The position numbers and the translations under genes were made by a program. Positions 15,749-50,047 of a DNA stretch of 64,000 nucleotides are shown piece after piece. The stretch is from Marchantia polymorpha subsp. ruderalis. Taxonomy: Eukaryota; Streptophyta; Marchantiopsida; Marchantiales; Marchantiaceae. Where the stretch lies: positions 12,174,501 to 12,238,500 of the forward strand of contig AP031356.1 of NCBI GenBank assembly GCA_037833965.1, in the 5' to 3' direction. Numbering within the stretch: position 1 is the first letter of the stretch; each line of letters opens with the position of its first letter. The notes beneath the pieces are model-generated. The model worked only from the letters and a program-made list of their open reading frames with translations. It was not told the origin of the DNA and made no database searches.

Positions 15749-18188
15749 TGGTAAATGGTAAATGGTAAATAGATCAAGCCCGTGGGACCCAAAGGGTCAA
15801 AAGGCTAAAAAACACAATACAAACAATCCAACTCCAAACTAGGAGAGAACCAAAAGAACCCCCTAGCTAGTGCCCAAAGCACTAGAACGGTAACTAATAA
15901 TATCTCTAATGTAACAACCTAAATCATAAGGCTCGAGTTGAAGTAGAGAAAAGAAATTCTCGACATCAACTTTATGCGCCACTCGAATCTCTATATATCT
16001 AGTACAAGTAATAAACACATGCTCTTCATCCTCAACATTTCTCTCATCACATAGCCTACAAATCCGTTCACTCCTATCAATATTCAACCAACGTACTTGC
16101 TCAATTCCAAGCCTATGAGATCCTGTTCTATGCCTTGCAATAATATGACGTAAAGATGTAGCGATCTCTGCAACAAGGTACCCTTGCTCACAATAAATAA
16201 GCATAGGATTCACATGAAGTTGATAGAACTGCATTTTAGTGCCTCCTCTCCTCCAAATGATGTTGAGAAACTCCTCCTTAATACACTCGCGAAGGGCCAT
16301 AGTTTGCAGATCCCAATCCAATTCCGTCACATTCCACCTCAAAGACCAAGTCATCACATCTGCAAACCATCCCTTGGAACGTGTGGCACGCAAAGCATGA
16401 AGAGGAAGTCGAGAAGCATCAAGAGATCTCAACCTTCTAATATAAGTGATGGTCAAGTAGAGAGCTTCAGCCTCAAGAGGTAGACAACCTGTTTCCGCAA
16501 GAAGAATAGCATAAGGAGTTTGGTTCATTACACCTAACTCTTCTTGTAAGAAGATCTTTTGCACCCTCTCCACACGCTCCCAACTTGTCTTCTTACTGCC
16601 AGGACCTCACACTTGTGTCCCATATAAAACCACCGGCGACACTAAACTCCTAAATAAAAATTTCCTAAGACTCCAAGATACTAGATGAGCTCCTCTACAT
16701 CGATTTAACAATGAATATAGAGCTTTGTAACCAGCTTCTACTCTCTTTTGTACACAAAGTGCCCGACTATAATTCTGAGAAAAATCAATGCCTAAATATT
16801 TGTAACTCTTCACTTGTTCCAATTCTAGTCCCTTGTAAAAGAGAGAGAACTTGGATCTAGTGCCCACAAGAATGATCTTTGATTTTTCCAGATTGATCTC
16901 CATCTGATTTCGAGTACAAAAGCTAGCCAAAGTATCAAGGTGTTTCTGTAAACTAATTGCATCACGTGCTAGTAATATGATATCATCTGCATACAAAAGA
17001 GCTTTGATCACAAAGTCTCCAAGTTTGACTCCTTCACTCTCACAATCATCCAACCATCTTTCTATATCATCTATGAATATTCCGAATAGAGTAGGAGAGA
17101 GAGGACAACCTTGAATAACTCCAATGGTGCTCGAGATTTCTTGAGGCTGAGAGGCATCAATCTTAGCTTGAACTGAAGTGTATAAAGTGGCCACAGCTCC
17201 GAGTATATTAGCCGGTACTCCAATGTCTTGTAATCTTTCCCATAAAAGCTTTCGAGGAACAATATCAAAAGCTTTCTTCAAATCGATGAAGGCACAAAAT
17301 AAAGCTTTCCCATTGCACTTGGATTTCTCCCATAAAACACGTAAGGCCAAAATATGGTCAATAGTGTTGTATGTAGGACGAAAACCGGCTTGAGCCTTTG
17401 CTCTCTTCTGAAAATCCTCTGTCCATGTGCTCAACTTCGATTCTACCAACTTCCCAAACAACTTGGCAAAAACACTACCAACCATGATGGTGCGATAGTT
17501 TCTCACCACGTCCTTCCTTCCTGATTTATGAATAGGAACAATCTTCCGCATGGACCAAGTTGATGGAAAACCATGAACCATAGCATCTTCCAAAAGCTTA
17601 GTGAGAACCGGTCCAATACAATCTCCTCCCCACTTGATAAGTTCAATGGACAAGCCATCTAAATCCTCACATTTGCCATTTGCTAATTTTCGGAGAATAG
17701 TCATCACCTCTCCTTCCGAAAATAATCCAGGTGTTGCTTCGCAATATGGCATAGATGTGGCTTCTGGAAAGAAATAGAGCTTTTCGGCAAAAGCTACCAA
17801 AGACTCGGAATCAAGAGAAGGTTTTGACGATGGTGTAGCTAATCGTCTCCAAAAGGACTTGGGATCATTCATCAGGTCCTTTGTCAAGGATTCTTGCTTT
17901 CGTCTTAAGAAAGCTCGTTTCTTAGACTTCACCAAGTCTTTGTATATCCTTGTCAAAAGAAGCCGACTTTGAATATCCAAAGACCTATCAACAGACCTTG
18001 CCCTTGCTAGCTTGCATTCGGAGTCAAACCATCCATTGCAAGGTAGCCCCTTAGCAATCCTAGTGCTATGCCTCAAAAAGAACTTTGATGCAGAAGTTTT
18101 GAGCAATTCTATGAGCTGTAAACTAGCGGTATGCGAATCTGGACTCCATATGGTTTGAGTCAAAAGATCTTGTAGATGTTCTGCATAA
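15749..18188 (-). mobile_element. 5'-truncated LINE (non-LTR retrotransposon), copy 1
   Basis: The 3' end lies on the left and consists of about three TAAATGG units (plus-strand reading) followed by the conserved TAGATCAAGCCC. From there to 18188 the sequence is nearly identical to the longer copy at 41871-45205. Homology stops abruptly after CTGCATAA at 18188. The ORF1, endonuclease and 5' UTR are therefore missing, as expected from incomplete reverse transcription. I could not find a target-site duplication. The reverse transcriptase frame has only one nonsense codon, so this is a fairly young copy. Confidence 0.9.
15863..18188 (-). pseudogene. LINE ORF2 remnant: reverse transcriptase plus C-terminal zinc motif
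   Basis: In the source element this ORF copies element RNA into DNA at a nicked target. One minus-strand frame runs through the whole piece, in two parts. The first is the linker and RT domain, with an AFIDLKKAFD block, GVIQGCPLSPTLF and the catalytic YADD (codons near 16982-16993). The second, after a stop, is a C-terminal region with a CX2C...HX4C motif (CRLC...EEHVFITC, near 16021-16075), as in the zf-RVT region of plant LINEs. The only in-frame stop is TGA at 16607-16609, where the other copy has TGG. The ATG at 18223 lies in flanking DNA and is not the element's own start. The endonuclease is absent, so the copy is non-autonomous. Confidence 0.9.
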
Positions 18189-28036: not shown

Positions 28037-29982
28037 CTGTACAATGGCTGTAAGTTGTTCTACGATGGAAGCTTTGTAAATTTGTAGATGTACATAGAGG
28101 ACTAGTTCAGGTGTTTAGGTTGTGCATAACCCTGGACTAAGGTGGCGTTCGCTCAAAGCACTGTGGTATCAACACGCAAGTAAGTTGCAACTTGGTGAGT
28201 GCTCCTCTGCTTTTCTGAAGATCGCACAGTGAAGAGGAGGATGCGCTCCACAGGACAGACACAGTATTGGGCTTCTGGTCAAAAATTACTCAGCCAGAAC
28301 TGTTGTTCTTGTGCAAAAATAGTGTTGTACAATATGAGAGGTTGAGTGTTAGGATTGACTTCAAATTGCAGAAAACAGCTAAGGTGAGCTCGTTCTTACT
28401 CTAATTTGACATTTATATTTCAAAGAAGACCAAGGGTACTCGATTTCTCCCTTACTTCTCTTGAGTTGTAATAAAAACCTGAGGTGTGCTGCAATGCACT
28501 TGGCTCGGTTCCACCTCGGGAAAGCATCTGTAAACATTATGTGTATTTGAAGGTCTTCTTGATATGGAGAAGTTTTTTTGTTGAATGCTATGCTTCTTTC
28601 TTTGTGCTTTGCCCTTACCTCATGATATTTGTGTGTTCTGCTTTTAGAATCGTATGCCATACCTGTGATAAGATCATATTTGATCGGCCCTCTGGAAGTT
28701 CGTTTACCCGTGATTAGCAACACTCAACCGTATGTGGGTAAGAAGTTCTGTACTGAATGACTGAAGGCCAGAGTCGCGAGCCGCTTGAGTTGAAAGCCTC
28801 ATGTACGGTTTTGAATGCGGCTTTGTTTTGTGACCTGATTGGTTCCTACTCTTAATAAAAGTTCTCACATTTCGAAGGTTTTTCCAGATGGTTAGGCCGG
28901 CAAAGATGGGTGTTTGGGGTATTGGTTTGCTCCTGTTCTTCCAGAGTAGACGTTCACAAATTATGTTTTGCTTATACAAATTATGTCTTGGTTATACGAG
29001 TAAGAACAAGGGTTCTTACTTTATGGGTTCCCTTGTTCCCTGGTGATGTAAGGATTTCCTCAGACGACTACTTTGGAAAATTTGGTCGATTGTTGCAAAT
29101 TGAATGTGAAGTAGACTGTTTTGGCTTGTACCGCGAAGAATGTACATGAAATATATTATGACTTGAACTGTCCGGGAGCCCCACCTTCCTACATGGAGTT
29201 AAGAAAGGCCGCCAGTCGTTCCGAATTTCTGTTCTGTACGTTTTAGACATTGGTCTGGACTCTCTACCGCCGTGCCCAAAAAAAAGAGAGAATCCGCAAC
29301 TTGTGCATGAGTTCCACGATTGTCCGCATGTTGATTCGAGTCAATGTTCTCACTGAATACTATCCCTACACTTGAATGCCTAACTTAAAAGGTAATTGCA
29401 AATTCCATCCAAGTTGTTCTTTACTAAGACGGTGGCTTTGAACTGGAGATTATGCCACTTGGGATAAGGATAACAGTTTTTCTGTCCTGGATCTTTTCTC
29501 ACCATCATGTCCTTTGAGTCTTGTCAAACTACGAATGTATAAGCAATTATTAAAAGTTCAGTTGCATTCAAGAAACTGTACATTGACTGTCATAAAAAGA
29601 GTATATAATCTTAAAAGAAAATAGCTACCAAACAACAATTGTATTAATTATTACTAGTAGATCATTCTCACAAATTGTGAAATATTATAAAAGATGTGAT
29701 ATTTGTTACTTCTGTTATAGAAAATTAATAAACTGGATACATATTAATGATCAAGTATCTTTGAAAAATTATACAAAGCCTTCATAAGAAACTTGAAACT
29801 TGATTCCCAAGGATACAAGACAACTATTGATTATTTTAAAAGTAGATTTGAAAACTGATTTTGAAAATAAATTGAATACCTTTCTCTATTCTATTTATTT
29901 TCAAGTGATTCCTTTTTCAATATCATAACTATTCCTAGATTTGTATTAATTCTTTAGAATTTATCATGCAGATTTGATGAAG
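28037..29982 (+). other. PHAF1 3' UTR and following intergenic DNA
   Basis: After the TAG at 28034-28036 the sequence has only short frames. AATAAA-like signals occur (for example near 28,853), but the true 3' end cannot be fixed. Positions 27107-29870 have no counterpart in duplication unit 2. No other gene is visible. Confidence 0.45.
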
Positions 29983-30443
29983 TAAATGGTAAATAGATCA
30001 AGCCCGTGGGACCCAAAGGGTCAAAAGGCTAAAAAACACAATACAAACAACCCAACTCCAAACTAGGAGAGAACCAAAAGAACCCCCTAGCTAGTGCCCA
30101 AAGCACTAGAACGGTAACTAATAATATCTCTAATGTAACAACCTAAATCATAAGGCTCAAGTTGAAGCAGAGAAAAGAAATTCTCGACATCAACTTTATG
30201 CGCCACTCGAATCTCTACATACCTAGAACAAGTAAGAAATACATGCTCTTCATCCTCAACTTTTCTTCCATCACATAGCCTACAAATACGTTCACTCCTA
30301 TCAATGTTCAACCAACGTACTTCTTCAATCCCAAGACTATGAGATCCAGTTCTATGTCTAGCAATAATATGACGTAAAGAAGTAGATATCTCTGCAAGTA
30401 AGTATCCTTGCTCACAATAAACAAGCATAGGATTCACATGAAA
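29983..30443 (-). mobile_element. LINE 3'-end fragment in unit 1
   Basis: This 461-bp insertion begins with TAAATGGTAAATAGATCAAG, the LINE 3' tail. It is about 93-95 percent identical to the 3' ends of the copies at 15.7 and 41.9 kb and carries the C-terminal zinc-motif codons (minus frame at 30087-30464). The matching locus in unit 2 (39140 region) reads straight through without it. This shows the empty site and defines both ends: GATGAAG on the left and TTGGTGG on the right, with no duplicated target bases. Confidence 0.92.
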
Positions 30444-30565
30444 TTGGTGGAAACATTGCATCATTGAAGATTATGTGTATTGCATGTGAACCTTGAGAGA
30501 TGCATCTTCATACAATTTGACTTGTAATTTTTCACATATCATTTTTTTTATCAAAATGATACTAA

Positions 30566-31365
30566 ATAAATGGTAATAAACCAAGCCCGGGATCCAAAGT
30601 ATCAAAAGTCTGAAAAACACAATACAAAAAAAATCACAAACAAGTGAAATGACCCCAAAGTCCAATCTCTAACTAGTTACAAGAGCACTAGAACGATAAT
30701 TAATAATGTCTCTAATATAACAACCTAAATTAACTATAATAAAGAATAGAAATTCTTCACACCTATATTATAAACAAGCTTAATATCTTGGTACCTAGAG
30801 CAAGTAGCAAATACATGCTCTTCGTACTCAATCTATCCATCGTCACATAATCTACAAATACATCCACTCCAATCAATATTAAGCTAATGTACTTACTCAT
30901 TCCGAACCTATGAGATACAATTCTATGCCTAGCAATAATATGACATAAGTACGTAGAGATTACTCCAAGTAAGTAATAATGTTCACAATAAACAAGCATA
31001 GGATTCACATGAAGTTGATAAAACTGCATCTTGATGCAATTTATTAAACATTATAAATAAACATATAACATTATAAACATAAACATTTTCTAAACATTAT
31101 TTGGAGCAAGCACGACATCTTGATGCCGCGCTTGCTCCAAATAATGTTCAGAAACTCTTACTTTAGACATTCACGTAGTGTTGTAGGTTGCAGGTCTCAA
31201 TCGCGTTCCGCTACATTCCACCTCAAAGATCAAGTTATCATATCCACGAAACATCCTTTGGAAGTGTGGCATTCAAAGCTTGCTTGAAGTTTCTAGCCCA
31301 AAGTTGAGATCCCTGCAAGATTCGACCTTCCCCTCTCAAAGATATCTCAACTTTGTACTTGGAAT
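30566..31365 (-). mobile_element. Older, diverged LINE 3' fragment in unit 1
   Basis: It starts with TAAATGGTAATAAACCAAGC and follows the same LINE 3' region, but with many substitutions and small gaps. It includes relics of the zinc-motif region (minus frame at 30763-31029) and reaches further upstream in the RT C-terminal part (to about 31.3 kb). Unit 2 lacks it near 39267, so it is also an insertion or a unit-2 loss. The right end is uncertain by some tens of bases. An inverted duplication (31093-31148) lies within it. Confidence 0.75.
31093..31148. repeat. Perfect 19-bp inverted repeat
   Basis: Positions 31093-31111 are the exact reverse complement of 31130-31148, with an 18-nt spacer. 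The right arm belongs to the LINE sequence (compare CTCCAAATGATGTTGAGAAACTC in the other copies). The left arm is an added reversed copy inside an AT-rich insertion, so the repeat probably arose by fold-back template switching. Confidence 0.85.
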
Positions 31366-34300: not shown

Positions 34301-34744
34301 TAATGCTTGCTTCGAAAGTTCTTGGAGTGTTAGCCTTCGACGGGAGCCCACGCCGCGCAGCTTGGAGACTTTCCAGTTGGTTTTTTGCATACACAGCCGC
34401 CGACTACGTGGCTCATTTGAGCCACGTAGCGCATGATGAGTTAGAACTCCAGTGTCGTTGGACCCAATTAGTTCTCTTCCCTCTTCAGATTATTTCTCTT
34501 CGGTTATATTCTAAAATCTGTAACATCCTAGAAAACATGTCGGTGCGACTACCAGATGTGAAGATGCTCACTAATGCTCGCTTGATGACTCTAACGCGGC
34601 TCGGAAACAAAGTTGGGACTGCAAATGGCACCTAAATTTGGGGCATTAGATCGCATTTTGATTTCACATTTAAGGGTTACAATGGTCACATACCTCAGAT
34701 TCTCAGATTGTCGACCCGCACGAGAGGTATCGCCAGTTCACCCG
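31366..34744. other. Intergenic DNA upstream of LBD copy 1
   Basis: This is AT-rich up to about 32.8 kb and more mixed after that. Most of it (except about 31.85-32.64 kb) has a counterpart at 39.27-41.80 kb in unit 2. A 144-codon frame at 34201-34635 is not preserved in unit 2 and the antisense frame is equally open, so neither is called. Clear features are few; the palindrome at 34404-34429 is listed separately. Confidence 0.5.
34404..34429. promoter_or_regulatory. Palindrome with paired ACGTGG/CCACGT cores upstream of LBD copy 1
   Basis: Perfect 12-bp arms (CTACGTGGCTCA and its reverse complement) flank TT. Each arm holds an ACGTGGC core, the recognition sequence of plant bZIP/ABF and some bHLH factors. 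It lies about 320 bp upstream of the LBD ATG and is kept in unit 2 (41474-41499). A regulatory role is inferred from motif and position only. Confidence 0.45.
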
Positions 34745-35160
34745 ATGTCCCACTCTGCGGAGGGAGCTCTTCGAGCTCGCTTTGTGCAGCATGCAAATTT
34801 CGACGACGGAAGTGCATGGCCGAGTGCATATTCGCACCGTACATTCCTGCAGATCAGCCTTTGAGGTTTGTGTATGTGCATAAAATGTACGGGGCCAGCA
34901 CTGTCACCAAGATTTTGCACGACATGCAAGAATCGAGCCGAGCAGATGCGGCGGCTTCGTTGGTATTCGCGGTCGAGGCAAGAGTGAAAGATTCGACTTA
35001 CGGATGTTGTGGCGCCGTCGTTTGGCGGATGAATCAAAGAATTGAGGAGTTGCGAAAACAAATTGCGGATCTGGATAAACAAGTATACTGGTTGGAGCTA
35101 AAAATGCGCGAGACACTGACTCAGTGGCCAGTGGTCCCCCAGTCCCTCATCTGTAGTTAA
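34745..35160 (+). pseudogene. LBD (LOB-domain) transcription factor, copy 1, frameshifted at the start
   Basis: LBD proteins are plant-specific DNA-binding regulators of organ boundaries and development. The frame ending at 35160 contains the class I signature. The zinc motif CX2CX6CX3C (CAACKFRRRKCMAEC) starts at 34783. The GAS block follows (VHKMYGAS through ARVKDSTYGC), then a Leu/Ile-spaced coiled coil (RIEELRKQIADLDKQVYWLE). Length is about 126 residues from the Cys motif. The matching start codon (ATG 34745) is one base out of frame: 38 nt separate it from the first Cys codon, against 39 in copy 2. The LOB frame has no other upstream ATG before a stop at 34633. Several normally conserved GAS residues have changed. 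An unseen upstream exon could rescue it, but a pseudogene is more likely. Confidence 0.8.
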
Positions 35161-36296
35161 TAGTCTTCGTTAGTAATGTAGTTGCATGGATGGTTACTGT
35201 ACAGCATGGCAAGGATTTCGTTTCCTTGACATGTTTTGTGTGTAATTAGTCAATCTGTAGTCAATAGCACGTTGCAGACTACAGTGGATCTCAGAAATAT
35301 AGTCTGTAGCCCTGTTATTAAATGCCCTTGCATCGCAGTCAACCGCGAGGCCTCTCGCCACTTTCGTGGCATATAATTCCAAAGTACAAAGTTAAATCTC
35401 CACATAGTGTTATTTCTTGTGAGTGACATATTACCATTAGTGATATAAAAATGAATAACCATTAGTTTCCAACGGGTAATTCTATTCTATTCTATTCTAT
35501 AATTCTAACAATACGTCATTATTGTTAATAATGTCAATAGATTTTTCAAGAATGACTATGTTGACATTTAATAGCCATCATAATTACCAAAAGTTTTTGT
35601 TAAAAGTTTATTGAGTGGTCTATCTCGATTCTTTTCAGTGGTTACAATATTCTCAGACTTTGAATCCGTGTCACTGATCAAATGTTTCGGGCGAAGAGGT
35701 CGAAGACATATCTCTATTCTCACTCGTTGCAATTTGGTGGTGCGATGTTTAAACCCTTGTGGGAAGAGTGCTGGAAGGAAATTGAGACAAATGGAGTGGA
35801 AAGAAGAACAGGTCTGTTCTGCCAGTGGGATATTTTCACACCTTTTCAACCTGGTCAGGATTGAGCCAAATCCATGATAGGGAAAACAAGTCGAAAGAAT
35901 AGATGGCGCACATAAAGTAGAGACAAATAAACCGAGTCTCCAATGCTGGAGTTGCGCTTGTAACTACTGTAAGGAGGACGATCATGACTTGTGCTGAAGA
36001 CAGAGATCGAGTATTTGTCGATGGGAAGTTTTTTTGAGTTTCTGTTGTCACATCAGACTGAAACAATCCAGTCTGAGAAGTTCTTTTGCGACCGAAGAAG
36101 GCAAGGCATTTAGTCTCAGATTATGCCAACGATGGCAGAAAAGCCGAAATCTATCATGGTTAACCGCGTCCGTGTGAATCCACGATCCATTTTCATGGCT
36201 TCGCAATATTTGTCGATGGGAATTTCTTCTGAATTTCTGTTGTCACATAACACTGAAAAATTCCAGTGGAGAAGATCTTCTGCGAACGAAGATTCT
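35161..36296. other. LBD copy 1 3' flank and unmatched DNA
   Basis: The first 210 bp match unit 2 and end at CGTGGCA (35369). The rest has no counterpart in unit 2. Short ATTCT repeats occur near 35,483. No gene is visible. Confidence 0.5.
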
Positions 36297-39033: not shown

Positions 39034-41801
39034 ATTGAATACATTTCTCTACTCTTTTTATTTTCAAGTGATTTCCTTTTCAATATTATAATCTATTTCT
39101 AGATTTGTTATATTTCTGTTGAATTTACCATGCAGATTGGATGAAGTTGGTGGAAACATTGCTTCATTGAAGATTATGTATATTACATGTGAACCTTGAA
39201 AGATGCATCTGCATACACTTTTGACTTGTAATTTTTTACATATCATTTTTTTGATCAAGATGATGCTAGGAAAGTTAGAGTCACAATGATAAAGTGTACT
39301 AATTTGTAAGATTTTCTCAGTTCACATTGTAAATCACAAACAACATCTTGTTTATGAATACTAAATGATCTATTTGGAGTATGAAATTAAGTATGATACA
39401 CTTGGACAACAGAAACTATTACTTTATTTGACAAAGAGATATTGACGTTGAGATGTTATCATCCCATATATTGCAATTGATCTTCATGTTTTACAAAACT
39501 TCAAAAAAAATTTGTTAATCATATCATATTGACAACCTTTCTAGTGTTCATGATGATATTCGGACAATAGATGGTGCTCAAATGATGTGATTAGCAACGA
39601 GGTCAACCATGAAGACTACCTTGATATCATAAAATACATTGATTTTTAATACCAAGAGAAATATCTTATGTTTGGCTGGACCATCAATATATATGTGTCA
39701 ACCTGAAAAAGTGTTTGTGTTTCTATTGCATAATACCCTAAACTCAACCTGATTTTCATTACAAATGACCTTGTAAGCTCTTCACATCCTAAATCAAGCA
39801 GGAATTTTTAACTTAGTGGCAACTGCATTAAAAAAGTTTGACACACGTTTTCAACTTTTCATAATGTATACGGTAGGATGCAGCTTGAATGCTTTTCCAC
39901 TAATAGGTAAATTTACGATAGCATGACATATATTTATATAAATCCTTGTGATGTCTTGTGTTAGTCCGCTTGAACTGCAACTGATACCACTGACTCCCCC
40001 GCCTACAATGACCGAGAGTGAGTCAGAGTAACTTCATAGTACTTTTAGCAAGCAGTCAGTCTTGAAATCCTCTTCTATTTAGCGGGTTAGGATTTTTACT
40101 TTTTGCTATGGTGCATCTCTCATGGTGTTACTTCCAGCAATGGTTCGAGAAATTTCCTGCAAGTCCACTTTCGGCTCATGTATAGTCGATAGGAGTGCGC
40201 ATGAGCTTTCTCATAAGCTTGGGCTTATGAGAAGCTGATGATCGGGGCCATTCAGGGGATGCCTATGTCGTAATTTAGACAAGGATTCATAAAACAACTA
40301 ATGAAATCCTTCTTCATGAATGAGGGTGTGATCTCAGAACTGCAGACTGTCATCACGATACTCGGTTGAGTGCACTCACGTCAATCAGGAAGTGCAGCAA
40401 TATACGGAATAGAATTGAGTAAATGTGAATTAGCAGAGAACGAAAGTTGTGTACATGGCATTAAGAACTACTTGAAGCTGTACATGTAATAATTATGGAA
40501 CTGCTTAGGAAATCCATGGTGCTCGAACCAGTTTCTTCAATAGTCTTAGACTTTTGTCAGGCATGTGCTCCCAGCTACAGGCTTGACGTTGACGCATTTG
40601 TGGGATTGAAAACTGTAGGTTATATTCAAATGCGCAAAATATATGCTCTGATAGCTCTGATCATATGTCGTTCAATTTCTCTGTAATTCATCTTTCAAGG
40701 GAAATTGGGACCGGAGAAGTGGCTACAGATATGAATCCGTATTGATCGTCACCGTGTGAAATTACTTAGCATTGCTTCTTCTCCAACTAGTCCTGGCGTA
40801 GGATCATACATAGAGACTGCAGCTTACTCATCTGAATCATGAAATTCGATTTCACGCTTCAATCGCTCACAGTCTTCAGATCTGTTGTAAGGCAAGATGG
40901 GCAGCTGGAAGTCCACCACATGGCTTCTGTTGAAGCCTGCTCCGCATAATGAGCCGGCGGCGCCTGTAAGCGCAACTGCGCACTCCAAGAAGAACAACCC
41001 AGACGTCCATGACAAGGACGAGGACCGGAGAGAAAGATTGCGTTTGATTAGGAGAGCATGAATCACGCGATTTTAGTTCGCAATTCATTCCATGTTCATC
41101 TTTCGTCCAATTCCCTCTGCCATCACAACACTTTCCGTCACAAATGAAGGTGCGAAATTCTAATAACCTTTTATGCATCCCAAGTTAAGAGAGGACCGCG
41201 GGCAGAGAAAGACGGCAATCCCTCCAAGCTATCAGGTCTGAAACTTTCGATGTAAACTCAGCGAAACTTCGGGTTACACCATCTTTCTTCCGGAATCAAT
41301 CTCCAAGTAACGGGGCGAGGGAGTCGCAGGACGGTCGGTCGAAGCTCCGTGTCACCAGAAGATGCGTTGCTAATGCTTGCTTCGAAAGTTCTTAAAGTGT
41401 TAGCTCTCGACGGGAGCCCACGCCGCGCAGCTTGGAGACTTTCCAGTTTGTTTTTTGCATACACAGCCGCCGACCACGTGGCTCATTTGAGCCACGTAGC
41501 GCAAGATGAGTTAGACACTGGAGTTCTAACTCCAGTGTCGTTGGACCCAGATTAGTTCTCTTCGGTTATATTCTAAAATCTGTAACATCCTAGAAGACAT
41601 GTCAGTGCGACTACCAGATGTGAAGATGCTCACTACTGCTCGCTTGATGACTCTAAAGCGGCTACGAAACAAAATTGGGACCGCAAATGGTACCCACATT
41701 TGGGGCATTAGACCGCATTTTGATTTCACATATAAGGGTTACAATGGTCACAATATACCTCAGATTGTCGACCCGCACGAGAGGTATCGCCAGTTCACAC
41801 G
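39034..41801. other. Unit 2 intergenic DNA upstream of LBD copy 2
   Basis: This is collinear with 29.87-34.74 kb of unit 1 but lacks both LINE fragments and about 0.8 kb equivalent to 31.85-32.64 kb. It contains the palindrome at 41474-41499 (G-box CACGTG in its left arm) and a second palindrome at 41514-41539. No gene is called. Confidence 0.5.
41514..41539. repeat. Newly formed 12-bp-arm palindrome
   Basis: The arms GACACTGGAGTT and AACTCCAGTGTC flank CT. Unit 1 has only the right arm (TTAGAACTCCAGTGTC near 34441), so about 13 bases were added in unit 2 as a reversed copy of adjacent sequence. Confidence 0.85.
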
Positions 41802-42037
41802 ATGTCCCACTCTCGCGGAGAGAGCTCTTCGAGCTCGCCTTGTGCAGCATGTAAATTTCGACGACGGAAGTAAATGGTAAATAGTAAATAGATCAAGCCC
41901 GTGGGACCCAAAGGGTCAAAAGGCTAAAAAACACAACACAAACAATCCAACTCCAAACTAGGAGAGAACCAAAAGAACCCTCTAGCTAGTGTCCAAAGCA
42001 CTAGAACGGTAACTAATAATATCTCTAATGTAACAAC

Positions 42038-45000
42038 CTAAATCATAAGGCTCGAGTTGAAGCAGAAAAAATTCTGGACATCAACTTTATGCGCCACTCG
42101 AATCTCTATATATCTAGTACAAGTAATAAACACATGCTCTTCATCCTCAACATTTCTCCCATCACATAGCCTACAAATCCGTTCACTCCTATCAATATTC
42201 AACCGAAGTCCTTCCTCAATTCCAAGCCTATGAGATCCTGTTCTATGCCTGGCAATAATATGACGTAAAGATGAAGCAATCTCTGCAACAAGGTACCCTT
42301 GCTCACAATAAATAAGCATAGGATTCACATGAAGTTGATAAAACTGCATTTTAGTGCCTCCTCTCTTCCAAATGATGTTGAGAAACTCCTCCTTAATACG
42401 CTCGCGAAGGGCCATAGGTTGCAGATCCCAATCCAATTCCGTCACATTCCACCTCAAAGACCAAGTCATCACATTTGCAAACCATCCCTTGGAACGTGTG
42501 GCACGCAAAGCATGAAGAGGAAGTTGAGAAGCATCAAGAGATCTCACCCTTCTAATATAAGTGATGGTCAAGTAGAGAGCTTCAGCCTCAAGAGGTAGAC
42601 AACTGGTTTCCGCAAGAAGAATAGCATAAGGAGTTTGGTTCCTTACACCTAACTATTCTTGTAAGAAGATCTTTTGCACCCTCTCCACACGCTCCCAACT
42701 TGTCTTCTTACTGCCAGGACCCCACACTTGTGTCCCATATAGAACCACCGGCAACACTTAACTCCTAAATAAAAATTTCCTAAGACTCCAAGATACTAGA
42801 TGAGCTCTTCTACATCGATTTTACAATGAATATAGAGCTTTGTAACCAGCTTCTACTCTCTTTTGTACACAAAGTGCCCAACTATAATTCTGAGAAAAAT
42901 CAATGCCTAAATATTTGTAACTCTTCACTTGTTCCAATTCTGGTCCCTTGTAAAAGAGAGAGAACTTGGATCTAGTGCCCACAAGAATGATCTTTGATTT
43001 TTCCAGATTGACCTCCATCTGATTTCGAGTACAAAAGCTAGCCAAAGTATCAAGGTGTTTCTGTAAACTAATTGCATCACGTGCTAGTAATATGATATCA
43101 TCTGCATACAAAAGAGCTTTGATCACAAAGTCTCCAAGTTTAACTCCTTCACTCTCACAATCATCCAACCACCTTTCTATATCATCTATGAATATTCCGA
43201 ATAGAGTAGGAGAGAGAGGACAACCTTGAATAACTCCAATGGTGCTCGAGATTTCTTGAGGCTGAGAGGCATCAATCTTAGCTCGAACTGAAGTGTATAA
43301 AGTGGCCACAGCTCCGAGTAGATTAGCCTATACTCCAATGTCTTGTAGTCTTTCCCATAAAAGCTTTCGAGGAACAGTATCAAAAGCTTTCTTCAAATCG
43401 ATGAAGGCACAAAATAAAGCTTTCCCATTGCCCTTGGATTTCTCCCATAAAACACGTAAGGCCAAAATATGGTCAATAGTGTTGTATGTAGGACGAAAAC
43501 CGGCTTGAGCCTTTGCTCTCTTCTGAAAATCCTCTGTCCATGTGCTCAACTTCGATTCTACCAACTTCCCAAACAACTTGGCAAAAACACTACCAACCAT
43601 GATGGTGCGATAGTTTGTCACCACGTCCTTCCTTCCTGATTTATGAATAGAAACAATCTTCCGCATGGACCAAGTTGATGGAAAACCATGAACCATAGCA
43701 TCTTCCAAAAGCTTAGTGAGAACCGGTCCAATACAATCTCCTCCCCACTTGATAAGTTCAATGGACAAGCCATCTAAATCCTCACATTTGCCATTTGCTA
43801 ATTTTCGGAGAATAGTCATCACCTCTCCTTCCAAAAATAATCCAGGTGTTGCTTCGCAATATGGCATAGATGTGGCTTCTGGAAAGAAATAGAGCTTTTC
43901 GGCAAAAGCTACCAAAGACTCGGAATCAAGAGAAGGTTTTGACGATGGTGTAGCTAATCGTCTCCAAAAGGACTTGGGATACTTCATCAGGTCCTTTGTC
44001 AAGGATTCTTGCTTTCGTCTTAAGAAAGCTCGTTTCTTAGACTTCACCAAGTCTTTGTATATCCTTGTCAAAAGAAGCCGACTTTGAATATCCAAAGACC
44101 TATCAACAGACCTTGCCCTTGCTAGCTTGCATTCGGAGTCAAACCATCCATTGCAAGGTAGCCCCTTAGCAATCCTAGTACTATGCCTCAAAAAGAACTT
44201 CGATGCAGAAGTTTTGAGCAATTCTATGAGCTGTAAACTAGTGGTATGCGAATCTGGAGTCCATATGGTGTGAGTCAAAAGATCTTGTAGATGTTCTGCA
44301 TAAAGGTCTCTTTTACAAGGATCTAAGCGAAACTTGGGAGAAGCTAAAAGAGATTGGCAAGGTGAAGTAGAGATTGATTTTGACATTGAAAGTGTGAACA
44401 AAAGAGGTGCATGATCTGATTCAGGTTGAGGATCCAGAACATCAAAATTGGAGATCAGAGAGGTACTAACCAAGGAAGACAAGAGAAAATCTATTGTGCT
44501 AGCACCGGTAGGGGAAAAACAAGTATTGGACTGAGAGTTGGGAAAGCGAGAGGTTCCATTGAGAACCTTCAAGTTACAAGTGGCTCCAAATGTCAAAAAG
44601 TGCTCTATCAAAGAGTTTGTGGAAGGATCAAAAGAGGTTCTAGACCACAAACTATCGTAAATTTCTTCAAACATAGAAGAAGCCAAGGGATTACTAAATT
44701 GAGTAAATTGAGCACAACGTATAAGAGCATTGAAATCTCCAGCAAGAAAGACATCCCCTTTACTTTGGAATCTAAGAACATCTTCAATAAGCCGATGGAA
44801 TGGTTCACTTTGGTTGCAAAAGCGTGTTGAGTAGATACCCATGGACAATGGTGCAAAATAACAAATTGCCAAATAGCAATAAGATCCTCCAACCACCCCG
44901 AGACGTAGCAAATGATACTGTCCACCAACATCTTGAACTTTTAGATGTATGAGAGGTAGAAGATGAGACCTGATGAAAGTAGCAATACCTCCTTGACCCC

Positions 45001-45202
45001 TTCCCGCATGTTGTCTTCTCTGGTTCCATGTCGACCTCACCAAGGTAAACCCTTCCAACTTAGCAATAGTATTGCTTTCATGTTCCCAAGTCTCCACAAT
45101 GTTGATGACGTCAGCCATCTTCCAAATCGGAGCAGCACTCACATACTTTGTTGTTGAAAGTCCTCGGATATTCCACACCAACACCCTTATCTTTTCGGAT
45201 TG
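42038..45202 (-). pseudogene. LINE ORF2 (AP-endonuclease, reverse transcriptase, zinc motif), degraded
   Basis: The N-terminal part is an APE-type endonuclease: WNIRGL at the start, GGIATFIRSHL, AGDFNALI, and SDHAPLLFTL near its end. The RT follows, with YADD codons at 43097-43108, and then the CRLC...EEHVF zinc region. There is no ATG between the upstream stop (45203-45205) and the WNIRGL codons. In-frame stops are at 43328-43330, 42821-42823, 42758-42760 and 42653-42655; a small deletion near 42065 changes the C terminus. Copy 1 (15863-18188) is intact at the four stop positions, so these are lesions of this copy. Confidence 0.9.
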
Positions 45203-45226
45203 CTATGTTGACGACACCCTCCTCCT

Positions 45227-45933
45227 CTAGGTAACGATTGCTCTTCCATCGTGTAAATAAGCAACAAAACCCGATTCTTGAGCCTCTTTTACCTTCGCAA
45301 GCTCCTTTCTCCTAACTTCCACTTGTAGAGGAGTCAGATCAGGATCCAACCGTATTCTACGTCCCTTTAACATAGCCTTATTAGCCAAGGCAACATCACG
45401 TTGAGTTTGATTGACAAACTTCACTATAATACCACGAGGTTGAGCTCCCTTGTTTCCAATACGAAAAGCTTGAGCCAATTCCGCATTGGAAACCTGAAGT
45501 GTTTCATCCAAAAACTTGGTGACAACACTCTTGACATCTTCATTCTCTATTTCAGGTAAACTTGAAATTCTCACATTCTTCTTACGTGCAAGCTGGTTGG
45601 ACTTTTCAATCTCTTGTTCTTGACAAAAAGATATTTGAGCAGCCTTTGTAGCTTCAGCGTAGGATTTGATCTTCAAATCTAAGCTTTCCCACCTCATGCA
45701 ATCTACGACTATCCGCACTTGTCATCTGAGAGCATGCTTTCCCTTGGATGTCATCCACAGATTTAGATACATCCCACATCACAGACACAGTTCTTCTGTG
45801 ATCCCTTCAACTCTCGAATTTGATTATGTGCGAGAGTTAAAGCAGCCTGTTGCATCTTGAATTCATGTCAAAGTTCCTTCAATTCTTCGAAAATTGTTTG
45901 CAGAAGCTGAAAAATATCGTCTTGAGAAGCCAT
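45227..45933 (-). pseudogene. LINE ORF1 (nucleic-acid-binding protein), damaged N-terminal part
   Basis: The open C-terminal part (45227-45718) resembles LINE ORF1 proteins. It has a VRISSLPEIENEDVKSVVTK segment, then RPRG/QPRGIIVKF-type and KGRRIRLDPDLTP segments, the RRM-like and C-terminal RNA-binding layout. A likely start codon (ATG, complement of 45931-45933, MASQDD) lies upstream in another frame with stops between, so the N-terminal coiled-coil part is frameshifted. The stop at 45227 lies about 20 bases before the ORF2 frame opens. In LINEs this protein coats the element RNA. Confidence 0.7.
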
Positions 45934-45957
45934 ATCGTATCAACTTCCGTATCAACC

Positions 45958-48233
45958 GAAACACTCTAAATTCTAGGTCGAAACACCAAAAAATATCGTA
46001 ACTTCTCACTCAAGCGTCCATGCACCTTCAAACTTGATGAGCTTCTGCCTAATATCAATCCCCAAGTCCTCAAAAATTTTCAACCTCAGATCATGCTTCG
46101 TCAAAAAGAAAAAAACGTCTGAACATTTTTGTGACCACCTTAACACTTGAGATAAAAAGTCGAAACTCAAAATGGGCTGTAACTTCTGAATCAAGCGTCC
46201 GTTCACCTTCAAACTTTTTTTGCTACTGCCGAATATTGATCTCCAAGTCCCCAAAAATTTTCAGCCTCAAATCATGCTTCGTCAAAAAGATAAAAATGTC
46301 TGAACATTTTTGTGACCCCCGGAACACTCGAAACAAAAAGTCGAAACTCCAAATGGGCTGTAACTTCTGACTCAAGCGTCCGTTCACCTTCAAACGTTTT
46401 ATACTACTGCCGAATATTGATCTCCAAGTCTCCAAAACTTTTCAGGCTCAGATCATACTTCATCAAAAAGATAAAAATGTCTGAACATTTTTGTGACCAC
46501 AATTAACACTCTTCGCAGAAGAAATTCGTGAACTTCGGCGTCTCAACTAAAAAATGCGTGAAATTTCGTAGGCTGGAGCGCGCTACCCAACTCCACGCCC
46601 CTGCAAAATTTCAGCTTCCGTGGACACTCAAGCGCGAAGAAACTATCTCTGCAAGAAACGATCTCGACCCCAACACTCGAAAACTCCAACTCGAAACTTG
46701 AGAAATCCGTGAACTTCAGCGTCCCAACTCCAAAATGCGTGAAATTTTGCAGGCTGGAGCACGCTACCCAACATCACGCCCCTGCAAATTTTCAGCTTCC
46801 GTGGACACTCAGACGCGAAGAAACCATCTCTGCAAGAAACAATCTCGACCCCAACACTCGAAAACTCCAACTCGAAACTTGAGAAATCCGTGAACTTCAG
46901 CATCCAACTCTAAAATGCGTGAAATTTTGCAGGCTGGAGCGCGCTACCTAACTCCATGCCCCTGCAAATTTTCAGCTTCCGTGGACACTCAGACGCGAAG
47001 AAACAATCTCTGCAAGAAACAATCTCGACCCCAACACTCGAAAATTCCAACTCGAAACTTGAGAAATCCGTGAACTTCAGCACCCAACTCCAAAATGCGT
47101 GAAATTTTGCAGGCTGGAGCGCGCTACCCAACCACACGCCTCTGCAAATTTTCAGCTTCCGTGGACACTCAGACGCGAAGAAACGATCTCTGCAAGAAAC
47201 GATCTCGACCCCAACACTCGAAAACTCCAACTCGAAACTTGAGAAATCCGTGAACTTCGGCGTCCCAACTCCAAAATGAGTGAAATTTTGCAGGCTGGAG
47301 CGCGCTACCCAACTCCACGCCCTTGCAAATTTTCAGCTTCCGTGGACACTCAAACGCGAAGAAACAATCTCTGCAAGAAACGATCTCAATCCCAATACTC
47401 GAAAACTCCAACTCGAAACTTGAGAAATCCGTGAACTTCGGCGTCCCAACTCCAAAATGCGTGAAATTTTGCAGGCTAGAGCGCGCTACCCAACATCACG
47501 TCCCTGCAAATTTTCAGCTTCCGTTGACACTCAGACGCGAAGAAGCAATCTCTGCAAGAAACGATCTCGACCCAACACTCGAAAACTCCAACTCGAAACT
47601 TGAGAAATCCGTGAACTTCCGCGTCTCAACTCCAAAATGCGTGAAATTTTGCAGGCTGGAGCGTGCTACCCAACTTCACGCCCCTGCAAATTTTCAGCTT
47701 CCGTGGACACTCAGAGGCGAAGAAACGATCTCTGCAAGAAACGATCTCGACCTCAACACTCGAAAACTCCAACTCGAAACTTGAGAAATCCGTGAACTTC
47801 GGCGTCCCAACTCCAAAATGCGTGAAATTTTGCAGGCTAGAGCGCGCTACCCAACATCACGCCCCTGCAAATTTTCAGCTTCCGTGGACACTCAGACGCG
47901 AAGAAACCATCTCTGCAAGAAACGATCTTGACCCCAACACTCAAAAACTCCAACTCGAAACTTGAGAAATCCGTGAACTTCGGCGTCCCAACTTCAAAAT
48001 GCGTGAAATTTTGCAGGCTGGAGCGTGCTACCCAATTTCACGCCCCTGCAAATTTTCAGCTTCCGTGGACACTCAGACGCGAAGAAACGATCTCTGTAAG
48101 AAACGATCTCGACCCCAACACTCGAAAACTCCAACTCGAAACTTGAGAAATCCGTGAACTTCGGCGTCCCAACTCCAAAATGCGTGAAATTTTGCAGGCT
48201 GGAGCGCGCTACCCAACTCCACGCCCCTGCAAA
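45958..48233 (-). repeat. Tandem array of 180-181-bp monomers (A and B subfamilies), LINE 5' region
   Basis: Subfamily A (about 45958-46508) has CAAGCGTCC at 46011, 46192 and 46373, a period of 181. Subfamily B (about 46509-48233) has GGCTGGAG/GGCTAGAG at 46571, 46752, 46932, 47112, 47293, 47474, 47654, 47835, 48016 and 48197, a period of 180-181. B copies are over 90 percent alike and CpG-rich. A and B share the period and short blocks (CACTCGAAA, TTTTCAGC), so they may descend from one unit. Because 181 is not a multiple of 3, the open frames here (up to 153 codons) are repeat artefacts. The last monomer is cut after CTGCAAA, where LBD sequence resumes. Confidence 0.93.
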
Positions 48234-48557
48234 TGCATGGCCAAGTGCATATTCGCACCGTACTTTCCTGCAGATCAGCCTTTGAGGTTTTTGTATGTGC
48301 ATAAAATGTACGGGGCCAGCAATGTCACCAAGCTATTGCACGCCTTGCCAGAATCGAGCCGAGCAGATGCGGTGGCTTCGTTGGTCTACGAGGCCGAGGC
48401 GAGAGTGAAGTACAGTATTCGGGTTACAGATGTTATCGCGCCGTCCGGTGCACAAGAGAAGAGTTACGGAACGAGAGAAACAAGTAAACTATTTCGAGGA
48501 GAAGAAGCGCGAGAGACTGACTCAGGGCCAAGTGGTCCCCCAATCCCTCATCAGTAG

Positions 48558-49852
48558 TTAATATCTTCGTTAGTAATCTAGTTGCAAGGATGGTTACAGC
48601 ATGCCAAGGATTTCGTTTCCTGACATGTTTTGTGTGTAATAAGTCAAACCGTAGTCAATACCACGTTGCAGACTACAGTGGATCTCAGAAATATAGTCTG
48701 TAGCCCTGTAAGTAAATGCCTTTGCATCGCAGTAACCCGCGAGGCCTCCCGCCACCTTCGTGGCAAGCGCAACCCTGAGTTCACTCATGAGGGAAGAGTA
48801 ATTTTGCAAGATGGGGTGCTTCTAGAATGTACAACCTTTGGCTGCGCCAAGATTTTGGGAATAAATGTCTTATTGTAATTTTTGGAATAAATTTAAATAA
48901 ATTTTGCGAATTCTGGCACCAACTCGGGCCGAGTGGTCTGACTATCACAAGATTACTCAACGGCCACATAACAGTTCTTGACTTAGTCTTCACCACCGTT
49001 ATCAGAGCTCTTCTCACAGTTCTAGTGAGCAATCTCAATCTCACCGCTCTCATGTCGCAGCTCTGAAAATTGGCCCTGACTTCAACATGTTGGAATACTG
49101 ACTCAGTCAAGCGCCGGATGGGCAGTATTGCATTCGTGAGTTACATGCCGTCGAGATCCAACGTGTGAAAAGCATCACGTTTTGAGTCTCATGTGAATTG
49201 GACTGAGCACAAGCTTTCCACTACAAGTAAGTACATAGCACCAACGTGAAGAACCAATGGAGACGTGGGAGGAGTAGACTGAATCGGGAGACTAAGTATA
49301 GCAAGAGTTTCACCTCCAGTTTGTATAGCGTCAGACTTTGAGAGTTTAGTGAGTCAAGTGAAAAAATCGTCCGTATTCACACAGATAATTTGCTCCAATT
49401 TATTTCGAACTTGTGAAGGAGGTTGCAAATGCTATTCGAGGCCGAGGTATTTGGACCTTTTCTGGAGTCAGAAATTCCATAGGCCAGAATACGGCCTGTG
49501 AAGACTTTGGAAATTCATCTGCCAACTTTATCTGCTATGGAGGACCACGTTGGGTTCGGCACGTAGGTACGTATCGATATGCCAGCGCCTTGAAAGCCTT
49601 GACAGCGTTGGATGAAATACATGCATAAACCTTCATTTCGATTCATTGAACCTTGAGCAATTCTGTAAACTTCTATAAAACTATCAAATTTGAGCCGTGA
49701 AAGTATTCCTGATCTTGCCTGAATTATCATGTCCACTGTGTGTGGTTTCATAGCGAGAAACATCATTATTAAAACATTATTTCATTTGTACACATCAAGC
49801 TACTTATATATCTATCCAGATACAAATTGAATATTATCTTGAATGGAATGGT
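48558..49852. other. LBD copy 2 3' flank and unmatched DNA
   Basis: Homology to unit 1 ends at CGTGGCA (48764). The rest has no counterpart. A 71-codon frame at 49413-49628 has no recognisable domain. Nothing else is seen. Confidence 0.45.
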
Positions 49853-50047
49853 GAATAGAACAAGCATGTGAGACCCAAAGTGTCAAAATGTTAAAAAACA
49901 CAATACAAACAATCCAACGCCAACCTAGGAGAGAGCCAAAAGAACCACTAGTTAGTGCCCAAAACACTAGAACGATAACTAATAACATCCCTAATGTAAC
50001 AACCTAAAGCATAAGGCTCAAATTGAAACAAAGAATAAAAATTCTCA
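49853..50047 (-). mobile_element. Diverged LINE 3'-end remnant
   Basis: It begins with a degenerate tail (ATGGTGAATAGAACAAGC) and follows the LINE 3' UTR and last codons (AACACAATACAAACAATCCAAC, TAGTGCCCAAAACACTAGAACG) with scattered substitutions, fading out after about 195 bp. It is older than the copies at 15.7, 30.0 and 41.9 kb. Confidence 0.85.

Follow-up and report, generated by a model that had tools for sequence, protein, structure and literature searches.

The insertion that splits an LBD gene of Marchantia polymorpha subsp. ruderalis was identified as a LINE with two open reading frames, an APE-type endonuclease and a leader of tandem monomers (type A, then type B, then ORF1). The reading that best accounts for the data, to which a probability of about 0.78 was assigned as a whole, is that such a leader is inserted with the element and supplies the start site of its RNA; the promoter role is suggested by the phase at which the 5' ends of the copies fall. 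Coordinates without a chromosome name refer to the window, i.e. the whole 64,000-nucleotide stretch of contig AP031356.1 that was analysed.

Structure of the inserted element

The LINE occupies 41872-48233 on the minus strand. The limits proposed from the sequence alone (41871..48233) were correct to within a base or so. Read from its 5' end at 48233, where HMM tiling placed the cut in the 5'-most unit at monomer position 106, the element consists of ten 181-bp A units (46520..48233, minus strand), three 181-bp B units of other sequence (45956..46511, minus strand), ORF1 (45227..45933, minus strand), ORF2 (42038..45184, minus strand), and a 3' untranslated region with a heptamer-type tail (41872..42037, minus strand). 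TRF reported a period of 181 for the A array at 46520-48234 (9.5 copies, 93% match, score 2996) and for the B array at 45998-46511 (2.8 copies, score 781). No similarity between A and B monomers was detected by nhmmer, and the interpretation of B as diverged A was rejected on this ground. The array had been described as a single 181-bp repeat; the period was upheld, and the single monomer type gave way to two different ones.

The two halves of the interrupted LBD copy 2 lie at 41548..41871 and 48234..48640 (both given without strand), the right one encoding a LOB/LBD domain (PF03195, E 7.8e-22). A paralogue at 34438..35246 (also without strand) served as the empty site; its junction lies between 34813 and 34814, with GGAAGT on one side and GCATGG on the other. 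The filled site rejoined at 41871 and 48234 with 0 bases lost or duplicated relative to the paralogue, and comparison of filled and empty sites revealed no target-site duplication at the LBD insertion. TRF, HMM tiling and the paralogue comparison thus bore out the view that a LINE bounded by its 3' tail and by an array cut in mid-monomer splits this gene, and that the gene rejoins exactly across it.

ORF2 matched an APE-type endonuclease (PF03372, E 7e-11) and the reverse transcriptase profile RVT_1 (E 1.8e-8 and 4.8e-19), which together place the element among the non-LTR retrotransposons (LINEs) with an APE endonuclease. In the PDB the reverse transcriptase was about equally weakly matched to R2 proteins and to 8c8j. 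The ORF1 protein gave nothing above cut-off against Pfam. Among other weak profile matches was 2ldy (E 1), a named ORF1 product that we take to be that of mouse L1. The structure model of ORF1 (pLDDT 52) was too poor for searching, but helices and strands follow one another in it as would suit an L1-type ORF1 (coiled coil, RRM, CTD); a search with PF02994 found no match in ORF1 and none in the controls either, and was therefore uninformative. In this family the 3' tail consists of (ATTTACC)n heptamers, and a run of 8 A within 60 nt was absent at 53 of 53 3' ends.

Comparison with other copies, whose frame has 251 codons, puts the start codon of ORF1 at 45933. The ORF1 of the window copy is ~25 bp shorter than these and out of frame, and its ORF2 is in three broken frames, so that both are broken here; other copies of this family (family 1) include ORF1s open over 251 codons.

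Insertion of the array with the LINE body

Within the genomic stretches examined, monomers directly preceded ORF1 in 31 of 31 family 1 copies, with 3-7 B and 0-19 A units and with constant order and strand throughout. Six further ORF1-like matches (76-81% identity) in these stretches were sister families or fragments. Since most of the stretches had been fetched by a query containing B, a search with ORF1 only was the fairer test. A monomer array lay upstream, by sequence or by coordinates, in 35 of its 40 matches; three showed just the end of the last B unit, and two were partial copies outside the check. The A monomer was found at 601 sites genome-wide (control pattern, 0), at least 100 of which are known by place, and there was no long LINE-free A array in the stretches examined or at the 100 of 601 A sites listed. 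The single A array seen whole without ORF1 in those stretches results from an internal deletion joining the array to ORF2.

Target flanks were read in family 1. Of 13 elements, nine had flanks that rejoined across array and body with a discrepancy of 0 to about 19 bp (three did not rejoin, and one had no known target). Where read, target-site duplications were absent or very short; some junctions bear filler bases, including a run of T. Arrays are carried by the insertion in the LBD gene and also by insertions outside the genomic clusters described below (C2 17.53 Mb and C3 17.78 Mb). Array and body are shown by these data to be a single inserted unit in unrelated targets.

The sequence-only reading had taken the array to have arrived with the LINE as its 5' leader, and the 31 copies together with the nine rejoined elements sustain this. 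It expected copies to differ in monomer number and to begin in mid-monomer; both were confirmed, and the architecture proved general, as the copies in the examined stretches, the ORF1-only search and two sister families indicate. An intact ORF1 lacking monomers, and monomers forming free satellites, had been named as evidence against it; neither was seen in the stretches examined or the ORF1-only search.

Sister families and genomic placement

Two sister LINE families have arrays of their own before their own ORF1, made of 165-bp units (family 2) and 348-bp dimers (family 3), and in both the array leads straight into the ORF1 ATG. These different but related arrays are new here. Both families were searched with array and ORF1 together, so that array-ORF1 pairings are biased in them; ORF1 alone was used as a query for family 1 only. 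The A, 165-bp and 348-bp monomers are related to one another (A-348, E 5e-23; 165-348, E 8e-28; A-165, E 5e-8), which implies that the leader design is older than the three families. Matches cluster at one spot per chromosome, presumably the centromeres. Neither this clustering nor the sister families figured in the sequence-only reading. At up to 3 mismatches the genome holds 601 A, 513 165-type and 218 348-type sites, together about 0.27 Mb.

Phase of the 5' ends

Family 1 junctions were read base by base. From 37 junctions, L069 and L070 (identical flanks) and likewise L079 and L080 were each counted once, giving 35; three further pairs with similar flanks, near-same target base and different phases were kept. 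The count leaves out four B-ending copies, arrays truncated by a locus edge, and the repeat instances of a single C5 copy and a single C9 copy. One 10-bp stretch of the 181 held 14 of the 35 ends, a count that none of 2000 uniform simulations reached (Rayleigh p about 0.003); a stricter count with one member of each similar-flank pair removed gave 13/32 (0 of 10000 simulations). Over half of the family 1 ends fall off the peak, as does that of the window's own copy at phase 106, and these off-peak ends may be either ordinary truncations or looser starts.

For family 3, phases were taken from row coordinates at face value, interrupted arrays possibly included, in 37 of 40 scored rows; C9:10471182 was removed as a duplicate, and C9:10560223 and C9:10428493 were removed because a family 1 insertion interrupts their 5' end. 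Twenty of the 37 ends fell in 25 of 348 bp (0 of 2000 simulations; Rayleigh p about 5e-6). For the row C4:20105390 phase 38 was used; a small additional fragment points to 127 instead, and with that value the count would be 21/37. Among the 20 peak members, array length runs from about 1.6 to 22.6 units and takes 18 different values.

The family 2 set comprised 25 of 40 rows; the query's own row, C9 duplicates, rows with interrupted arrays and those starting at query base 1-3 were removed. Nine of these 25 ends lay within 10 of 165 bp (0 of 2000 simulations), although the phase is weaker than this suggests (Rayleigh p about 0.07; for a 25-bp stretch, 44 of 2000 simulations reached the observed count), and the peak is at another monomer position than in the other families. 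No TATA-like or common motif was obvious by eye at the three start phases.

Monomer order is unconserved between copies. In 18 arrays, 191 of 1080 best matches were at the same index (186 expected), and a colinear monomer register was rejected because such matches are at chance. With order unconserved, these data agree equally with a promoter in every unit and with one in the first unit alone.

Proposed mechanism and alternatives

Under the preferred reading, RNA would begin at a preferred phase inside a monomer, predicted at 5-15 of A, 121-145 of the 348-unit and 79-90 of the 165-unit, and the array would act as an internal promoter that is copied and inserted together with the LINE body. A copy starting at a downstream unit, or truncated within the array, would still retain promoter units, and unequal exchange may alter their number. 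Reverse transcription would start from the heptamer tail of the RNA at breaks or nicks, which would often lie within other LINE copies of the centromere-like clusters.

An autonomous LINE requires an internal start site. This, together with one dominant phase in each of three families despite their different sequences, argues against an array that is a genuine part of the element with a chromatin, packaging or translation role, the common phase then marking a point where the reverse transcriptase stops or jumps and not the RNA start. Such a role would suit the differing peak position of family 2 and the filler bases, including the T run, at some junctions, which suggest that end processing matters; the same pattern in mouse L1 is nevertheless taken as the start site in the cited passages of PMC6454616 and PMC9022269, and we judge the explanation unlikely. 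Somewhat more credible, though still doubtful, is descent from one or a few masters with a fixed 5' end, in which the first unit alone starts transcription and unit number shifts later by unequal exchange. The lost monomer register fits this, and so do two C9 copies with identical 5' flanks and arrays of about 14 and 9 units, which show that arrays change after insertion. By itself, however, it leaves the ends at other phases unexplained, and it is compatible with the main reading in that the start site still lies inside a monomer.

That the monomers are host centromeric satellite, with the LINE just adjacent or having acquired the satellite once, is very improbable. Monomers and LINE do share the same centromere-like clusters, and PMC12885004 cites a report of a 162-bp satellite at M. 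polymorpha centromeres; yet arrays stand in the same order and strand before all family 1 ORF1 copies in the stretches examined, the LBD insertion and the C2 and C3 insertions outside the clusters carry them too, and the total of monomer sites is too small to make up a megabase satellite, barring diverged units that escaped the count. A satellite merely beside the LINE was rejected, as the monomers accompany the element in unrelated targets. Least probable of all is spread by segmental duplication in place of retrotransposition, the shared architecture going back to one event. On C9 there are matches that repeat about 131 kb apart, C5 copies lie 6,514 bp from each other, and there are two identical flank pairs and three pairs similar at a near-same target base; the remaining 5' flanks differ and targets rejoin as described, so duplication was rejected as the main source, though retained for some of the C9 and C5 copies and for the few similar-flank pairs.

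Centromeric repeats

According to Montgomery et al. 2020, as cited in PMC12885004, one specific LINE family flanks the 162-bp satellites at M. polymorpha centromeres; it is probably the same as the elements described here. The 162-bp satellite was sought with three 170-bp probes in centromere gaps, which turned up two pieces of LINE and a dispersed sequence present in four copies, and the tandem-repeat search of the stretches examined yielded no repeats of period 162. Tentatively, Marchantia centromeres might be built largely by a LINE clade with satellite-like promoter arrays, the 162-bp satellite being such a promoter monomer or its descendant. If so, what serves as the centromere repeat would be the promoter of a retrotransposon, altered through unequal exchange and renewed by each insertion. 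The concentration of the elements in likely centromeres would connect a type of promoter with centromere DNA in a plant amenable to genetics.

Comparison with known systems

The Zepp and ZeppL LINEs of green algae also cluster at centromeres; we know of no tandem promoter monomers in them. Celine, a LINE of poplar centromeres, is likewise a plant two-ORF element that crowds centromeres and nests in other elements, but the cited part of PMC11288735 gives it a 635-bp 5' UTR with no mention of monomers, a DUF4283 domain in ORF1, a poly(A) tail and TSDs that are 10-30 bp long. No plant precedent for a tandem-monomer LINE leader was found in a literature search, which did not reach Montgomery et al. 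2020.

The closest likeness is to mouse L1 (L1Md A, Gf, Tf). As described in the cited passages of PMC6454616 and PMC9022269, ORF1 is preceded in these elements by monomers of about 200 bp that vary in number, with a distinct sequence (a tether in mouse, the B units in Marchantia) next to it; monomer types differ by subfamily, and 5' ends fall in mid-monomer at a preferred phase, a pile-up interpreted there as the start site and set beside CAGE data. The Marchantia LINE differs in its plant host and its clustering at one centromere-like spot per chromosome, in an ORF1-proximal part that is itself tandem, in a heptamer tail rather than poly(A), and in target-site duplications that are absent or very short where read. 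The likeness lies in layout and 5'-end phase, both known from sequence, and the driving of transcription by monomers is putative in Marchantia. Convergence is assumed from the hosts, layouts rather than monomer sequences having been compared. In PMC6454616 tandem monomer promoters figure as peculiar to mouse L1, its background stating that only mouse has such repeats near the L1 5' end. The same layout in three related liverwort LINE families, with their own monomers and phases, would show a repeated origin of the design, presumably because an array shields the promoter from 5' truncation; plants seem to have reached it independently of mouse L1.

The window LINE and its target gene

The genome searched comprised 241,466,482 bases in nine contigs (C1 to C9), the window occupying C7:12174501-12238500. 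The LINE of the window, from which family 1 is defined, was placed at 41872-48233 on the minus strand by monomer tiling and empty-site comparison. In its ORF2 a domain search identified reverse transcriptase as well as APE endonuclease. ORF1 was preceded by ten A monomers and then three B monomers, each type with a period of 181 bp; no similarity between A and B was detectable by profile comparison. The target was a LBD gene (PF03195). As the sequence-only reading had stated, its halves join exactly across the LINE; comparison with the empty-site paralogue at 34438-35246 confirms this and shows no target duplication.

The two LBD (LOB-domain) genes form a tandem pair (34438-35246 and 41548-48640) near a LINE cluster, one being LINE-broken. 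Five more alignments to the same or related LINE bodies (75-98% identity) were located in the window at 15752-18188, 29982-31279 and 49842-50045, and none of the five reached the monomers.

The array as part of the element

The tandem-leader architecture is well supported by comparison of genomic copies. In the stretches examined a monomer array stood upstream of all 31 family 1 ORF1 copies, its order and strand unchanged throughout; B units numbered 3-7 and A units 0-19, a variability in number that had been anticipated. Six additional ORF1-like matches (76-81% identity) belonged to sister families or were fragments. Most stretches behind the 31/31 count were retrieved using a query containing B units, and an ORF1-only search was the fairer test. 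There the array lay upstream in 35 of the 40 copies scored (by sequence or coordinates); in another three (L089-L091) the terminal portion of the last B unit was visible, and the remaining two were partial ORF1 copies. Both flanks were known for 13 elements. At nine of these they adjoined at the target, which was another LINE body in eight cases and the LBD gene in one; three of the other four were without rejoined flanks and one was without a known target. The claim that the array arrived with the LINE as its 5' leader is upheld by these counts.

Free satellite arrays would have spoken for a separate origin of the monomers. Genome-wide, 601 A-monomer sites were located at ≤3 mismatches (control pattern, 0). 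Among the 100 sites listed, 99 fell in a chromosome cluster or at C2 17.53 or C3 17.78 Mb, places outside the clusters where ORF1 copies were also present; the remaining one was a lone site at C4 23.50 Mb. The sole A array seen whole without ORF1 was fused to ORF2 through an internal deletion, and is a deletion derivative. Free arrays were not seen among the sites listed.

Array turnover and phase of the 5' ends

Best-matching monomers kept their place in the array in 191 of 1080 cases against 186 expected (18 arrays), so position was not conserved, and array length differed between two C9 copies whose 5' flanks are identical. Unit number therefore changes in situ, by gain and by loss. Because of this turnover, a promoter in each unit and a promoter in the first unit only are not separable here. 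Larger duplications were also observed: at C9:10.41-10.68 Mb (L037/L038, L069/L070) many matches repeat at offsets of ~131 kb, and at C5:15971849-15989159 (L029-L031) three LINE copies lie exactly 6,514 bp apart, in a head-to-tail duplication.

Family 1 5' junctions (n=37) were read base by base and identical flanks merged, leaving 35. The predicted mid-monomer 5' ends were found: 14 of the 35 fell in monomer positions 6-15, a clustering reached by 0/2000 uniform simulations, and the window copy started at phase 106, off this peak. A stricter count, with one member dropped from each of three pairs having similar flanks and nearly the same target base, gave 13/32 in 10 bp (0/10000 simulations). 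In these pairs (L084 with the C5_15971849 patch; L082 with the C5_15913858 patch; the C5_16099238 and C7_11979522 patches) the insertions hit a LINE target at almost identical positions but with different 5' phases, which may reflect target preference or old duplicates.

Among family 3 (348-bp dimer array) 20 of 37 ends lay within 25 of 348 positions in alignment coordinates, in arrays of ~1.6 to 22.6 units with 18 distinct lengths among the 20. For family 2 (165-bp array) the figure was 9/25 within 10 of 165 positions, counting all 25 ends, any with shared flanks included; its phase signal was weak by the Rayleigh test (p ~0.07), and for a 25-bp stretch the observed count was reached in 44/2000 simulations. 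In mouse L1 such a 5'-end pile-up was interpreted as marking where transcription of the parent copy began and was compared with CAGE data, in which types G and T had sense peaks close to the pile-up (PMC6454616); tight 5' start peaks inside monomers were also reported (PMC9022269). On this analysis, the tandem leader as a promoter design is moderately supported.

Element ends

The 3' tails were built of a tandem heptamer, (ATTTACC)n; counting partial units along with whole ones, 48/53 ends had 3-5. Target-site duplications, where read, were none or very short, and filler bases occurred at some 5' junctions. At L072 (C3:15018681-15018800) the 5' junction, at phase 9, carried a run of ~37 T between the target and the element. 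In the C4_19876225 patch (L040), at ~2970, a family 1 3' tail directly borders the beginning of an ORF1 of family 3, the arrangement expected if a family 1 element had landed between the array and that ORF1.

Sister families

Family 2 is represented by L018:12-1183 (4.1 copies of the 165-bp unit, then a related ORF1 ATG) and family 3 by L052:1-1204 (348-bp array, then another related ORF1, its N-terminal part 69% identical to that of family 1). The 348-bp unit consists of two diverged halves of ~174 bp each. Array and ORF1 sequence were found in 40/40 scored copies of each family, using queries that themselves contained both. Genome-wide, 513 sites of the 165-bp type and 218 of the 348-bp type were located (controls, 0). 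The monomers proved related (A-348, E 5e-23; 165-348, E 8e-28; A-165, E 5e-8), and therefore the tandem leader probably predates the split of the three families. The monomers probably diverged along with them.

Genomic location

Locations were searched using the A array, ORF1 plus B, and the 3' end as queries, scoring the best 40 candidates per search. Among these, almost all family 1 matches fell in one spot of ~0.2-0.35 Mb on each of contigs C2-C9 (for example C2 14.17-14.34, C5 15.86-16.10 and C7 11.97-12.22 Mb), the outliers being C3 17.78 and C8 17.89 Mb; further searches added C2 17.53 and C5 23.76 Mb. Family 2 matched all nine contigs, on C1 chiefly at 3.39-3.50 Mb, and family 3 matched C2-C9; the matches lay mostly at the family 1 spots, with some on the arms. 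Since there is one main spot per chromosome, the distribution suggests candidate centromeres. A 162-bp centromeric satellite, flanked by one particular LINE family, has been reported for M. polymorpha (as cited in PMC12885004); the satellite was not found in the 0.32 Mb of stretches examined or with three probes (C2-C9 clusters).

Comparison with known elements

A full-text literature search, mainly of open-access papers, listed no tandem monomer leader for any plant LINE. Celine, a centromeric LINE of poplar, has a 635-bp leader for which the available text mentions no monomers. Tandem monomer promoters are already known from mouse L1 (PMC6454616, PMC9022269), and what would be new here is this layout in plant LINEs. 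The A, 165-bp and 348-bp monomers have probably diverged with their families in the same manner as the A, Gf and Tf monomer types of mouse L1.
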